This document shows positions 3,114 through 9,407 of a DNA stretch of 53,460 bases, piece after piece (positions within the stretch are counted from its first letter, which is position 1; the number at the start of each line of letters is the position of its first letter). Source of the DNA: Ruficoccus amylovorans. GTDB lineage: Bacteria > Verrucomicrobiota > Verrucomicrobiia > Opitutales > Cerasicoccaceae. The translations under genes were made by a program, and so were the position numbers. The stretch lies in the NCBI RefSeq assembly GCF_014230085.1, contig NZ_JACHVB010000044.1:1-53460 (forward strand), given 5' to 3'. Under the pieces are notes generated by a model, which was given only the letters and a program-made list of their open reading frames with translations, searched no databases and was not told where the DNA came from.

Positions 3114-6100
3114 ATGTTAAAACTGTTCCGACTACGACCTCTGGCGGCGGCTACGGCTATCAATGCCCTCCTGGCATGGACCTTGGCTGCCGGTGCGGAT
3201 ACCGAACTAAAAATCTCGGTCTCCGATGACTGGGGCGGCGGCTTTACCGCGAACGCCTCCTTCACCAACACCACCGGGACCGCCCTCAGCGGCTGGTCCC
3301 TGGCCTTCGATGCGCCTTTTACCGTTGGCAGCATCTGGAACGCGCAAGTCCTCAGCACGGAAGGGAGCAAGGTCGTGGTCGGCAATGCCTCCTGGAACGG
3401 CTCCGTCGCCGCCGGGGCGACGGTCGAGTTCGGGTTCAGCGGGACGGGCTCCGCGCCCGCCAGCCTGAGCGCCGTGCTCTCCGGTGAGGCCGGAACCGGC
3501 GACACCGGTGGCGGCGATTCCTCCGGCGGAAGCTCCGGCGCCGGCAGTTCGATTGTTTTCCCGCTGGTCGATGCGGGCGGGACGGCGTTGCAGGTGACGG
3601 TTGCGCAGGGGGCGAACAGCCTCGCATTGGAAACCGCAGGCAACTACGCCGTGGCCACGAACAACGCCGATGTGCTGGAGCCGGGAATCTCCGGGCAGGC
3701 CGTCACGCTGCGGGGCTTGTCGGCGGGGAGGGCGTCGATGCGTATTGAAAATCTGGATACAGGCGATGTGCGATACCTCGGCGTGCGTGTGCTCAACGCG
3801 GACGGATCGGTGCCGGGACTGCCGGGCTACCTGGCCATCGGCTCGGTGAGTGAGGATTCGAGCGCGGACCTGGGTTTTTGGCAGGACTTTGAAGACCCGG
3901 CCCAAAACAAGCGCGTGGACATTCGCTACATTTACCTTAACGGCGGGGTCTCCAACAGCATCGGCGACGGTTGGAACTGGCGCGCGCTCAACGACGGCGA
4001 GCGGGCCACCCGCTACGTCGAGGAGAGCGTCAAGCTCGGCATGATCCCGTTTTTTGTCTGGTACAACATCCCCGACGGCGGCGAGAGCTACTACACCGAC
4101 AAGCAGCACATCGAGTCGGCCTCCTACCTGGAAGGCTACTTCGCCGACCTGAAGCACGCGCTGGAGATCACCAGGGCCGTGGCCGGTGACGAGGTTATCG
4201 GCTGGGTGCTGGAGCCGGACTTCCTCGGCTACTTCGCGCAAAACAACGCCGCCAGCCCGGACGAAATCTACGCTGCCACCAGCGCCGCCTACTCGGCGGG
4301 CGTTCTCGACGCGGGCGACCCGGTTTTCCCCGACACCCTGCGCGGGCTGGTCGAGGCGATCAACTACACCTTTCACAAGTACCAGCCGCAGGCGTATTTC
4401 GGCTGGCAGTTCAATCTCTGGGCCTCGCCCGCCGGTGGCTGGACAACGCCGGTCGGTGCCAAGGGCGTGATCCGGCTGACCGACACGCTCGGGCTGGCTG
4501 ATGGTCGTCAGGCGATCTATGACGAAGCCTCCGCCATCGCCGACTACTACGCGGCGGCGGGCGTGCTCACGCACGGGGCGAGCTTTGTCAGCATCGACAA
4601 ATACGGCCTCGACGCCGCCTATGACGGCAACGCGGCCAACCCTGCCGCCAGCACCTGGTTCTGGAACGCTGCGCACTGGACGAACTACCTCGTCTTTGTC
4701 AACGCCATGCACGACTCAACCGGCTTGCCCGTTGTCCTGTGGCAGCTTCCCGTCGGCCATATCAACTCGACGCAGGCGGCGAACCCTTACGCCTCGGGCG
4801 GTTCGTTCGCCGACCTGGCCAACACGGTCCAGCACTACGAGGACTCCAGCGGCACGTACTTCCTGGGGGACAGCTTTGTGCCCGGCACGGAGACGCGGCT
4901 GGCCTATTTTGGCACCACCGATGGCGGCACTTCCGAGGTCGCGGTCAGCGGCGGCACCGTCACCTGGGGCTCGCATCTGCCGCTGGCCAAGGAAGCGGGC
5001 GTGGTGGTCGCGCTCTTCGGCGCGGGCGTCGGAGCCAGTACCGACGGCGTGGGCTCGCCCCCGACGGACGACTACTGGTTTATTTCCAGGGTGCAGGACT
5101 ACTACGAAAGTCCGGTCGTCCTCGATGGCCAGGTTGGCGGCATTGACCTGCCGGACGGCTCCGGTGGCGACGGCGACAATGGCAATGATAATGGTAGTGG
5201 AGATTCCGATACAGGCAACGGCGACGGCGGTGACACCGGAACGGGTGACACCGGCGGCGGTGATGACAACACCGGCACCGGCAGCGCGGACATCGCGGTG
5301 GCCTACGTGATCGGGAGCGACTGGGGCGACGGCTTTACCGCCACGGTCAGCCTGACCAACAACGGCACCGCCGCGCTCAACGGCTGGACGATCAGCTTTG
5401 ATCTTCCCGTGAGTATCTCCGGTTACTGGAGCGCGAAGGACGGCACCGCCTCGGGCGACCGATACACCTTCAGCAATGAGAGCTGGAACGGCGGCATCGC
5501 CGCCGGGCAGACGGTGAGCTTCGGCTTTCAGGCTACGGGGAACTCCTCCGCTGAGATGACGGACATCGTGGTCAATGGCGAAAACCTATCGGACGGCTCC
5601 GGCGACGAAGGTAGTGGAAATTCCGATACGGATGATGGCACCGGAAACGGTGAAGATAACGGCAATGGTGAGGATAATAACAACGGCGACAGTGGTGATG
5701 GCGGTAGTGAAAATCCGGATACATCGGCGGCACTCGTCGTCACTGTGTCGAGTGACTGGGGCAGCGGCTTCACCGCCACGGCCACGTTGACGAACACCAC
5801 CGGGGAGAATCTCGACGCGTGGACGGTCTCCTTTGACTGGCCCTACGGGATCACCAGCCTGTGGGACGCCAAGCTCGTCTCCCATGAGGGCGACCGCTAC
5901 ACCGTTTCCGGTTTGAACTGGAACGCCGCGCTGGCCGCCGGGGCGAGCGTGAGCTTCGGTTTCAACGGCGCTCCGGGCGGCGTTGCCAGCCAGCCGACCC
6001 ATGTCACGCTCAACGGTGTCAGCGTTTCCGATGGCTCCGGTTCCGGTGAGGACAACGGTTCCGGCGATAACGGTAGTGGAAATTCCGATACAGACTCTGG

Positions 6101-7415
6101 CAGCGGTGGCGACAACGGCTCGGGCTCCGATAATGGATCGGATAATGGTAACGGGTCGGATGACGGCTCGGGCGAGGACAACGGCGAGGGAGACTCCTCG
6201 GGTAACGGCGGCGATACCGGCAACGGCAACTCCGGTGGTGACTCGTCCACGCTCGCGGGCCGTGTTGTTGGCTACTTCCCCAGTTGGGGCATCTACGCCC
6301 GCGGCTACGAGGTGGCCGACATCCCGGCGGAAAACCTGACCCACATCGTCCACGCCTTCGCCCGCATCAGCACGAGCGGACAGATCGAGGTGATCGACAC
6401 CTGGGCCGATCTGGAGAAGACCTTCGGCGACGATACCTGGGACCAGCCCTTGCGGGGTAACTTCAACCAGTATCAGGAACTGAAGGCGCTCTATCCGCAC
6501 TTGCGGGTCATGATCGCCGTCGGCGGCTGGTATGACTCGGGCCGCTTCTCCGAGGTGGCGGCTTCGGCCTCGGCGCGGGAGAAGTTCGCGCAGTCGGTGG
6601 TGGATTTCGTGGTCAAGTATGACTTCGACGGGATCGACCTGGACTGGGAATATCCCGTGGTCGCGACCGATGTGAACTCCAACGTCCGTCCCGTCGACGC
6701 CACCAACTACGCCCTGCTGGCCAAGGCGCTGCGGGAGGCGCTCGACGCGCAGGGAGCGGTTGACGGCAAAACCTACGAAATCAGCGCCGCCGTGCCCGCC
6801 GGTTATGACAAGTACGAGCAGATCGACCTGGCCGCGTTGGCGCAGCAGCTCGATTGGTTCAACCTGATGACCTACGACTTCCACGGTCGCTGGGACAAGA
6901 CCCGCACCGGGCACAACGCCCCGCTCACCGCCAATCCGGCGGACCCGATGCCCCGCTACAACGCGGCTTCCGCCGTGCAGGGCTATCTCGACGCGGGTGT
7001 CCCGGCCTCGAAGATCAACCTCGGCATCCCGCTCTACGGCTACACCTGGACGGGCGTTCCGGCCACGGCCAACGGCCTCTTCCAGAGCGCGACCGGGCTG
7101 GGCGCGGGCACGGTCGAGACCGGGATCATCGACTACCGCACGATTGTGGAGAACATGCAGGCCGATCCGGCCAACAACATCGAGTACTGGGACGCGGACG
7201 CACAGGTTTCCTACCTGTACAACGCCGCTACCGGCAACTTCATCAGCTACGACAGCCCGGCAGCGGTTGAGCGCAAGCTCGACTACGTGGCCGAGCAGGG
7301 GCTGGGCGGGGTCATGTTCTGGGAGCTCTCCAACGACGTGCGCGACAGCTCCACTCAGGCGTCGATCCTCCGCCTCGTCGGCGAGCGCTACATGCAGGCC
7401 GCCGAGGCCAATTAG
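3114..7415 (+). CDS. Secreted multidomain chitinase: CBM2, unassigned barrel, CBM2, CBM2, GH18
   Basis: 1433 residues. Order: signal peptide (about 1-28, cut after the Ala-rich LAWTLAAGA); CBM2-like module (31-125); Gly/Ser linker; small beta module (148-230); a roughly 430-residue region (239-669) I cannot assign; acidic Asp/Gly/Asn/Ser linker; CBM2 (726-824); linker; CBM2 (869-970); long acidic linker (972-1042); GH18 catalytic domain (1046-1430). The GH18 signature DGIDLDWEYP is complete, with D1172, D1175, D1177 and acid/base E1179, so it should hydrolyse beta-1,4-GlcNAc polymers outside the cell. The middle region has FFVWYNIPDGGESYYTD and LEPDFLGY (E367, D369), which look like sugar-binding or catalytic loops. 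The three CBM2 copies share the pattern DWG.GFTA..LTN, W.NA/W.AK and SFGF. No transport or regulator genes adjoin it. Confidence 0.9.
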   Translation: MLKLFRLRPLAAATAINALLAWTLAAGADTELKISVSDDWGGGFTANASFTNTTGTALSGWSLAFDAPFTVGSIWNAQVLSTEGSKVVVGNASWNGSVAAGATVEFGFSGTGSAPASLSAVLSGEAGTGDTGGGDSSGGSSGAGSSIVFPLVDAGGTALQVTVAQGANSLALETAGNYAVATNNADVLEPGISGQAVTLRGLSAGRASMRIENLDTGDVRYLGVRVLNADGSVPGLPGYLAIGSVSEDSSADLGFWQDFEDPAQNKRVDIRYIYLNGGVSNSIGDGWNWRALNDGERATRYVEESVKLGMIPFFVWYNIPDGGESYYTDKQHIESASYLEGYFADLKHALEITRAVAGDEVIGWVLEPDFLGYFAQNNAASPDEIYAATSAAYSAGVLDAGDPVFPDTLRGLVEAINYTFHKYQPQAYFGWQFNLWASPAGGWTTPVGAKGVIRLTDTLGLADGRQAIYDEASAIADYYAAAGVLTHGASFVSIDKYGLDAAYDGNAANPAASTWFWNAAHWTNYLVFVNAMHDSTGLPVVLWQLPVGHINSTQAANPYASGGSFADLANTVQHYEDSSGTYFLGDSFVPGTETRLAYFGTTDGGTSEVAVSGGTVTWGSHLPLAKEAGVVVALFGAGVGASTDGVGSPPTDDYWFISRVQDYYESPVVLDGQVGGIDLPDGSGGDGDNGNDNGSGDSDTGNGDGGDTGTGDTGGGDDNTGTGSADIAVAYVIGSDWGDGFTATVSLTNNGTAALNGWTISFDLPVSISGYWSAKDGTASGDRYTFSNESWNGGIAAGQTVSFGFQATGNSSAEMTDIVVNGENLSDGSGDEGSGNSDTDDGTGNGEDNGNGEDNNNGDSGDGGSENPDTSAALVVTVSSDWGSGFTATATLTNTTGENLDAWTVSFDWPYGITSLWDAKLVSHEGDRYTVSGLNWNAALAAGASVSFGFNGAPGGVASQPTHVTLNGVSVSDGSGSGEDNGSGDNGSGNSDTDSGSGGDNGSGSDNGSDNGNGSDDGSGEDNGEGDSSGNGGDTGNGNSGGDSSTLAGRVVGYFPSWGIYARGYEVADIPAENLTHIVHAFARISTSGQIEVIDTWADLEKTFGDDTWDQPLRGNFNQYQELKALYPHLRVMIAVGGWYDSGRFSEVAASASAREKFAQSVVDFVVKYDFDGIDLDWEYPVVATDVNSNVRPVDATNYALLAKALREALDAQGAVDGKTYEISAAVPAGYDKYEQIDLAALAQQLDWFNLMTYDFHGRWDKTRTGHNAPLTANPADPMPRYNAASAVQGYLDAGVPASKINLGIPLYGYTWTGVPATANGLFQSATGLGAGTVETGIIDYRTIVENMQADPANNIEYWDADAQVSYLYNAATGNFISYDSPAAVERKLDYVAEQGLGGVMFWELSNDVRDSSTQASILRLVGERYMQAAEAN
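5193..6091 (+). repeat. In-frame direct repeats in chitinase linkers
   Basis: GGTAGTGGAAATTCCGATAC occurs exactly at 5610-5629 and 6072-6091, and with one change at 5193-5212. A fourth, degenerate copy is at 5703-5722. Spacings of 417 and 462 bp are multiples of three, and each interval holds one CBM2 module, so recombination between copies would delete or duplicate a CBM2 without a frameshift. Confidence 0.85.
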
Positions 7416-7844: not shown

Positions 7845-9407
7845 TTAGCTGTGCTCCTGCGTGGTCTTGACCTCGATCACGTCGTGAGGGGCGGATTCGC
7901 GTTGCCCGGCGGGGCTGACCCGGATGTAGCGGGCGCGTTCGCGCAGCTCGGGCAGGTTGCGGGCACCGAGGTAGCCCATGCCGCTTTGGATGCCGCCGAT
8001 GAACTGCGCCAGCACCTGATCGACCGAGTCGGAGACTTCCTTGACCGCCTCGACTCCTTCGGCTGCGACCTTGGCGTTGCGGATGTTGTTGGAGTGGCCG
8101 TAGCGGGCGGCGCTGCCGGCCTTCATCGCCTCCAGGCTGCCCATGCCGCGGTACTGTTTGTAAAGCTTGCCGTTGATCTCCATGATCTTGCCGGGGGCCT
8201 CGGGGCAACCGGCGAGCAGGCCGCCGCACATGACGGCGTCGGCCAGCGTGAGGGCCTTGACCATGTCACCGCTCTTGGTGATGCCGCCGTCGGCGATGAT
8301 CTTGACCCCGGCCTTGGCGGCTTCGCGGCTGGCCACGTAGAGCGCCGTCAACTGCGGGATGCCGACCCCGGCCACGATGCGCGTGGTGCAGATCGAGCCC
8401 GGCCCCTGGCCGACCTTGATCGCGTTGGCCCCGGCCTCGGCCAGGAAGCGCACGCCCTCGCCGCTGGTGACGTTACCCGCGATGAGGGTGAGGCCCGGAA
8501 ACTCCCCGCGCAGCAGTCGGACGGCTTCGCCCACCCCGGCGGTGTGCCCGTGGGCGGTGGAGACGGCGATGGCGTCCACGCCCTCCTCGACCAGCGCGGT
8601 GACGTGCCCGAGGAGCTTGTCACGGTCGATGATGCCCTCGGGAGTGCGGGGGGCGGAGACGGCGGCCCCGCAGAGCAGGCGGAACTGCGAGTCGCGGGCG
8701 GGCTTTACGTTGTCGCGGCTCTCGCCGGTGATGCGCTCGATGTCGCTGAGGGTGAAAAGTCCGGCCAGGTGGTCCCCGTCATCGACGACGAGGAGCTTGT
8801 GGATGCCCAGGTGATCGTTGAAAAAGCGGTCGGCGGCGGCGATGGGGTCGCCTTCGAGCTGCGACTGGCGCAGGGTAAAGACCTGCTCGCGCGGCTGCAT
8901 GGCCTCCAGCACCGTGCGGTCGCGGTAGCGCTGCTTGACGGCGCGTCCGGGGAGCAGCCCGAGGAGCTTGCCGCTCTCGTCCACCACCGGGAAGGTGCTG
9001 AACTTGAAGCCCTTGGCGTCCATCATGTCGAGCACCTCGGCGATGTGCATGCCGGGCTTGACGCTGATCGGGTCCTGGATGAGCCCGTGGATGTTGTTTT
9101 TGACGCGGGCGACCTGCTTGACCTGCTCGCGCTCGGACATGTTGTAGTGGATCAGGCCGATGCCGCCGTTGTTGGCCATGGCGATGGCCATGCGGGACTC
9201 GGTCACGGTGTCCATGTCGGCCGAGACGATCGGCACGGAGAGTTGGAGCGACTCGGAGAGCGAGGTCTCCGGGTTGGTCATGCGCGGGAGCACCTCCGAG
9301 TAGCGGGTGGCGAGCGTAATGTCGTCGTAGGTCAGGGCGACCTGTGCGTTATCCCGGAAAAAAGCATCCGCGGGCTTATAAAAGACTGAATCGGTATCTT
9401 CGCTCAT
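7845..9407 (-). CDS. guaB: IMP dehydrogenase
   Basis: It oxidises IMP to XMP with NAD+, the committed step to GMP. 520 residues, normal length. The N-terminal barrel has [18 protein letters not shown] and [15 protein letters not shown] two-CBS Bateman insert follows (about residues 105-230). The catalytic loop is GPGSICTTR with C340, and the flap is [18 protein letters not shown]. The start is the ATG at 9405-9407. It has no Shine-Dalgarno; instead a perfect 6-bp hairpin touches the start codon. It is convergent with the chitinase and divergent from menC. Confidence 0.95.

Follow-up and report, generated by a model that had tools for sequence, protein, structure and literature searches.

An unclassified, putative catalytic barrel distantly related to GH6 in a GH18 chitinase polypeptide of Ruficoccus amylovorans

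Bacterial breakdown of chitin is described mainly via GH18 and GH19 enzymes and lytic monooxygenases. The catalytic domain of GH18 chitinases (PF00704) is a beta/alpha barrel. Barrels are also found in clan GH-A, whose enzymes have an NEP motif at strand 4 and a nucleophile Glu at the end of strand 7. The fold of GH6 (PF01341), a cellulase family of endoglucanases and cellobiohydrolases whose catalytic base is debated, is a seven-stranded distorted barrel.

We analyzed a window of 53,460 nucleotides from Ruficoccus amylovorans, a bacterium with a 4.5-Mb genome (completeness 97.8%), which holds a gene for a multimodular protein. Our initial annotation had singled out about 430 residues of this protein, 239-669 (positions 3828-5120 of the + strand, between CBM2 modules), as belonging to no family it could name, and had proposed that they form a second, new enzyme active on chitin or cellulose. 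We now read residues 235-670 as a putative catalytic barrel from a so far unclassified family of glycoside hydrolases, distantly related to GH6 and probably cutting chitin beside GH18, a reading to which we assign a probability of roughly 0.6. The features of the gene are as follows.

3114..7415, + strand: whole gene, multimodular protein of 1433 aa (CBM2, Ig-like, GH6-related barrel, CBM2, CBM2, GH18)
3114..3197, + strand: putative signal peptide, residues 1-28 (translation, by eye)
3198..3491, + strand: first CBM2, residues 29-126 (Pfam PF00553; positions from a local HMM)
3552..3815, + strand: Ig-like domain, residues 147-234, directly N-terminal to the barrel (strands throughout in the AlphaFold2 model)
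3816..5123, + strand: unclassified GH6-related beta/alpha barrel, about residues 235-670 (the main finding)
5289..5585, + strand: second CBM2, residues 726-824 (Pfam; local HMM)
5724..6023, + strand: third CBM2, residues 871-970 (Pfam; local HMM)
6261..7343, + strand: GH18 domain, residues 1050-1410 (PF00704; DGIDLDWE motif by eye)

A Pfam scan of the whole protein bore out the earlier description of its partners, finding three CBM2 stretches (PF00553) and a GH18 match that spans the entire model (1-317 of 317, E 1.3e-97). The stretch between the first two CBM2 modules was likewise confirmed as unassigned, with no Pfam model at E <= 1 for residues 147-682 or 239-669 and no NCBIfam family for residues 147-682. 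The boundaries first drawn held for the unclassified stretch as such, but a separate Ig-like domain (147-234) precedes it and the barrel itself runs from about 235 to 670. Across the 30 aligned rows described below, Pfam gave the Ig-like domain weak matches to Big_2 (3 rows) and T2SS-T3SS_pil_N (11 rows). In relatives, the domain corresponding to 3552-3815 carries a conserved GRASxRI...LGVRV motif, with the barrel next. The linkers between modules (5145-5285, 5590-5720, and 6030-6250) are long and, by eye, rich in Gly, Asp, Asn, and Ser.

Scanning one genome per species, we recovered relatives of the barrel at 29 loci with identities of 46-84%. Their records are labeled Verrucomicrobia, Spartobacteria, Victivallis, Planctomycetes, cyanobacteria, Acidobacteria, Chthonomonas, Clostridia, Caproiciproducens, and Deltaproteobacteria, and since titles identify 23 of these 29 records as metagenome assemblies, the labels are taken as given. 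The barrel is a deeply conserved family across several phyla, and its distribution within the host's class is patchy (9 of 384 genomes, host included). The window barrel and the 29 relatives make up our 30-row alignment, to which four remote relatives were added for a 34-row alignment. Loci taken as repeats of others (L001, L031-L033, L036, L038, L115, L116, and L118), the fragment L040, and L119 were left uncounted; L117 was used in the tree only, the truncated L019 and L023 were omitted from the tree, and the upstream scan omitted L009, which was too short. A single-sequence phmmer search against the PDB matched nothing besides an endolysin (E 0.082), which we dismissed as chance, and a PHROGs search gave no match.

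More distant members of the group emerged from a tblastn search against plasmids, which returned seven records at 24-27% identity, three of them from Salmonella. Five remote loci, from Salmonella, Vibrio, a Serratia plasmid, Streptomyces, and a frame-shifted Cupriavidus copy, scored 116, 104, 74, 58, and 49 bits against the family HMM, and hhalign tied the remote groups firmly to the barrel family (99.9% and 99.5-99.7%). When the search was reversed with the Vibrio barrel, the window was found at 31% identity, with matches in 5 of 194 genomes. Neither Pfam nor NCBIfam named a family for the barrels of these relatives; a DUF3291 match in the Salmonella copy (E 0.061) was dismissed as chance. 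Outside the barrel, Pfam found a PKD domain and a sub-threshold CBM5/12 match C-terminal to it in the Vibrio protein and a ricin-type lectin in the Streptomyces protein, and the Serratia plasmid gene is annotated as a chitinase, a label only. The Streptomyces locus L072:1109-3301 and L120 from Variovorax share an EPDFWG motif and seem to form an additional subgroup within the superfamily.

The Salmonella copy is the counterpart of STM0019, which has STM0018, a GH18 protein, as its annotated neighbor. In Salmonella Infantis (L114:3312-6308, with a locus tag note of STM0019), it is a hypothetical protein directly 3' of chiA (STM0018). In two papers, STM0018 is known as ChiA (PMC9049507, PMC10109510), the chitinase operon is given as stm0014-stm0018 (PMC10109510), and two annotated chitinases, STM0018 and STM0233, are named (PMC9049507); a term search found STM0019 in neither, and the term was also absent from the Salmonella chitinase papers among the literature matches listed. 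No description of the barrel or of the function of STM0019 appeared among the open-access matches listed, and one may exist in print elsewhere or as a CAZy entry. STM0019 resembles the barrel as a remote superfamily member, with about 25% identity by tblastn (for plasmid-contig copies); its copy L070 scores 116 bits with the family HMM and retains the positions of D369, D495, and D500. It differs in having NPD for EPD, in its N-terminal domains, and in that its chitinase is the adjoining gene rather than a fused module.

The initial annotation had named a TIM barrel with paired acids as the fold that would support an enzyme, and structure prediction returned such a barrel, with conserved carboxylates (D369 and D495) after strands 4 and 6. 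AlphaFold2, supplied with the 30-row alignment, gave confident models of residues 147-682 (pLDDT 87.2, pTM 0.91) and of the barrel alone (pLDDT 86.9, pTM 0.90), in which an all-strand Ig-like domain leads into a barrel whose eight strands alternate with helices; in the model of the barrel alone, pLDDT drops below 50 in two loops, 44-48 and 403-407. Y317 is located just past strand 3, D369 and D495 directly after strands 4 and 6, and Q544 close to where strand 7 ends. Among the best 50 of 64 Foldseek entries with E <= 0.001 for the barrel alone, a galactanase came first (E 4.4e-7) and GH6 entries occupied ranks 3, 6-11, and 14 (best E 1.0e-6). When the Ig-like domain was included, a GH10 xylanase with an Ig domain of its own came first, and GH6 appeared with a best E of 1.6e-5. 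VIA-align placed GH5, GH164, and GH53-type barrels highest (Z 15-17), and no GH6 entry was among the 50 matches it listed, which excludes nothing. Both AlphaFold2 models contain eight barrel strands as against the seven of GH6, a difference that belongs to prediction only. We read the domain as a complete eight-strand barrel sharing ancestry with GH6, whose seven strands would, in this model, correspond to strands 2-8.

Kinship with GH6 first showed itself faintly. Searched against PDB sequences, the family profile matched a single chain, the GH6 structure 6fao (E 0.085). Pfam listed GH6 for 9 of the 30 rows, below its cut-off (best E 0.0017), and no other glycosidase family was among the 13 listed; scanned alone against PF01341, 2 of 10 barrels matched, with a top score of 18.8 bits against a cut-off of 27. 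The window scored 8.0 bits against a GH6 HMM, and its best relative scored 21.1. Given the weakness of these matches, we built an hhalign profile comparison, using a GH6 profile of 10 plasmid-borne sequences (5 annotated as GH6, the others found by similarity) and profiles for GH5 (n=15), GH10 (n=14), and GH18 (n=11). The 30-row profile matched GH6 at 89.9% (E 1.7e-6, score 53.2) versus 0.3%, 0.2%, and 0.3% for GH5, GH10, and GH18. One hundred column-shuffled GH6 profiles had a mean score of 16.3 (sd 2.9), a maximum of 28.7, and a lowest E of 0.0056, and the reversed profile scored 15.3. The GH18 score, 18.7, was near this shuffled background, and the barrel thus has no profile relation to the GH18 domain with which it shares a polypeptide. 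We likewise set aside the idea of an ordinary GH5- or GH10-type enzyme, as both matches (0.2-0.3%) were at the level of the shuffled background.

Confident alignment to GH6 is limited to 82 columns surrounding strands 3 and 4, which begin past strand 2 and end at the EPD motif; the remainder of the barrel is not confidently aligned, and a global alignment reached 17.7%. Profiles of the remote relatives alone gave 10.3% (for the profile that included the frame-shifted L073), 7.6%, and 19.7% against GH6, and a widened profile without L073 gave 86.9% for GH6 and 3.2% for GH18. The closest known relatives, GH6 enzymes such as T. fusca Cel6A and 6fao, share with the barrel a strand-3 YNIP motif with its Tyr and a strand-4 EPD with its acid Asp. 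They differ in that the barrel lacks the RDC loop and, by eye, the DTSRNG motif, has one extra predicted strand, and is repeatedly partnered by chitin-linked modules. The RDC signature (V-x-Y-x2-P-x-R-D-C) was found in none of the 30 family rows and none of the 5 remote ones; as only 6 of 10 GH6 controls carried it, the pattern is strict even for GH6. A strict PROSITE-type EPD pattern, a weak test that also found 6 of 10 GH6 controls, matched 3 of 30 family rows, the window not among them. Together, Foldseek and the profile comparison indicate that the barrel and GH6 are distantly related; as the barrel lacks the RDC loop and scores below the Pfam cut-off, we do not regard it as a GH6 member. 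The earlier statement that the stretch has no nameable family therefore stands as far as Pfam and NCBIfam go, and gives way to distant GH6 kin by profile and Foldseek.

We next asked which modules accompany the barrel. Of 34 polypeptides scanned with local HMMs, GH18 was present in 15 (12 of one type and 3 near-identical copies of another, L003, L004, and L035), CBM2 in 31, and GH5 in 1. Pfam confirmation, which covered 10 segments and sought GH8 in those alone, found GH5 in L084 (on a contig shared with L037), GH8 in L012, a dockerin in L024, and GH18 in L003. ChitinaseA_N matched at E <= 0.01 in 14 of the 29 segments upstream of the barrel, and phmmer with one ChitinaseA_N-type domain found it in 19 of 34 polypeptides, the window protein not among them. 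No GH18, GH5, or GH8 was detected in 17 of 34, several of them truncated; because truncated polypeptides were retained in these counts, GH18 is perhaps undercounted. On a 36-row tree, the GH18 label changes at least 9 times, 5 of them forced by well-supported branches, a count inflated by the scoring of truncated polypeptides as GH18-less, and as 37 of 500 shuffles were equally low, the label is weakly clustered. In a Pirellulales relative (L026:10126-11778), 551 residues lie between GH18 and the last CBM2 with no Pfam match at E <= 0.001.

Since GH18 accompanies the barrel in 15 of 34 polypeptides, ChitinaseA_N lies upstream in 14 of 29 segments, and STM0019 adjoins chiA, chitin seems the likelier substrate, judging from these module partners. 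Alternatively, the same GH6-related barrel could act on cellulose or another beta-glucan, with GH18 as its partner because natural walls mix chitin and glucans. The cellulase character of GH6 would agree with this, as would the presence of CBM2, which binds cellulose as well as chitin, in nearly every polypeptide, and the single relatives with GH5, GH8, and a dockerin suggest that the substrate may be cellulose or may vary. However, GH18 is the commonest catalytic partner found, and the ChitinaseA_N-type domains and the chiA-adjoining remote relative also speak against cellulose, so that we consider this alternative unlikely, if worth keeping in view. Because it accompanies chitin-degrading modules in diverse bacteria, the barrel may be an undescribed type of enzyme that cuts chitin or cellulose. 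The proposal of a second such enzyme thus retains its basis in predicted fold and conserved acids, but is amended by the kinship with GH6 and by the choice of acid.

We then examined the residues around the predicted active site. The motifs pointed out earlier (FFVWYNIPDGGE, LEPDFLGY with E367 and D369, and VVLWQLPVGH) are all present as written, and the impression of conserved loops proved sound, with Y317, E367, D369, D495, D500, W543, and Q544 identical in 30 of 30 rows, far from chance. P368, K496, P546, and G548 are also identical in all 30, and P312, Y317, P368, D369, G372, D495, D500, W543, Q544, P546, and others are identical in all 34 rows, remote relatives included. The key positions are as follows.

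4062..4064, + strand: Y317, just past strand 3 (30/30, 34/34; aligned to the GH6 YxxPxRDC stretch)
4083..4085, + strand: E324, strand-3 loop acid, near the GH6 RDC Asp position (E 28/30, D 2/30)
4218..4220, + strand: D369, proposed catalytic acid, in the EPD motif shortly past strand 4 (30/30, 34/34; aligned to GH6 EPD)
4596..4598, + strand: D495, directly past strand 6 (30/30, 34/34)
4611..4613, + strand: D500, strand-6 loop (30/30, 34/34)
4743..4745, + strand: Q544, near the end of strand 7 (30/30, 34/34)
5067..5069, + strand: D652, past strand 8, candidate base (D 26/30, E 2/30, gap 2/30)

The two acids first highlighted differ in constancy: D369 is invariant across all 34 rows, while E367 is replaced by Asn in three remote relatives (L069, L070, and L071), in which the acid at the position of E324 is also absent by eye. 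D369, rather than E367, is thus the likely acid on alignment evidence. We take its position to be that of the GH6 catalytic acid, the Asp of the EPD motif, and that of Y317 to be the GH6 active-site Tyr. The base is harder to place. In GH6, the Asp of WVKPPGESDG is the proposed base, and by strand order we infer that D652 occupies the position of this ESD Asp in the predicted model, in which the loop immediately before D652 has a pLDDT below 50 (barrel alone). A low-confidence hhalign pairing instead sets WVKPPGESDG against LWQLPVGHIN, with the Asp opposite N551, and this pairing of the H-I-N after strand 7 with E-S-D clashes with strand counting, which favors D652.

Fold, conservation, and GH6 kinship were computed, whereas we infer activity, inversion, substrate, and base. 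Next to the GH18 domain with which it shares a chain, the barrel would cleave a polysaccharide with beta-1,4 linkages (probably chitin), and the three CBM2 modules would hold the enzyme on its insoluble substrate. The reaction would be inverting and GH6-like: D369 would protonate the glycosidic oxygen, Y317 would shape the -1 subsite, and water would be activated by a second carboxylate, either D652 past strand 8 or D495/D500 past strand 6.

It could also be supposed that the barrel is a pseudo-enzyme, binding or guiding polysaccharide for a partner enzyme. In keeping with this, strand 7 ends in Gln (30/30) rather than in the acid of many barrel glycosidases, and the GH6 RDC signature is missing. 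Yet D369, D495, and D500 are unchanged in all 34 rows, even at sequence identities of about 24%, which fits catalysis (by eye, the later relative L120 has Gln at the D495 position), and since half of the polypeptides, several truncated, show no GH18, GH5, or GH8, the barrel often seems to work without any of these partners, which leaves a non-catalytic role improbable. A retaining glycosidase of clan GH-A type, with E367 in the strand-4 EP motif (likened to NEP) as acid/base, is more doubtful still: its overall geometry (Z 15-17), the leading galactanase row in Foldseek, and an E367 constant in the close family (30/30) are set against the change of E367 to Asn in three remote relatives while D369 stays, a Gln in 34 of 34 rows where the strand-7 nucleophile Glu should be, and hhalign matches to GH5 and GH10 at background.

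Returning to the GH6-related, probably chitin-cutting barrel, we propose tentatively, at somewhat less than even odds, that it represents a new glycoside hydrolase family, distant from GH6 and acting on chitin, that spans several phyla and reaches Salmonella as the chiA neighbor STM0019. If this is true, a catalytic type that travels with chitinases has been missed by annotation based on Pfam and NCBIfam, and a chitinase type would stand beside GH18 and GH19. Because the family lacks the RDC loop and retains the Tyr and the acid, the debated base of GH6 could also be examined in it.

Within the host genome, the barrel, GH18, and all three CBM2 matches are confined to this gene, which therefore encodes the only GH18 chitinase detected there; three GH20 matches were found at other loci. 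A PF01341 search of the host genome gave no match, and across 387 genomes of the phylum none exceeded the cut-off, with sub-cut-off matches at E <= 1 in 26 genomes; as 14 control genomes also gave zero, this survey does not show absence. By eye, the flanking genes, 1096-2640 and 7845-9407 (both on the - strand), look like those for adenylosuccinate synthetase and IMP dehydrogenase, and the chitinase gene thus seemingly lies outside any chitin operon.
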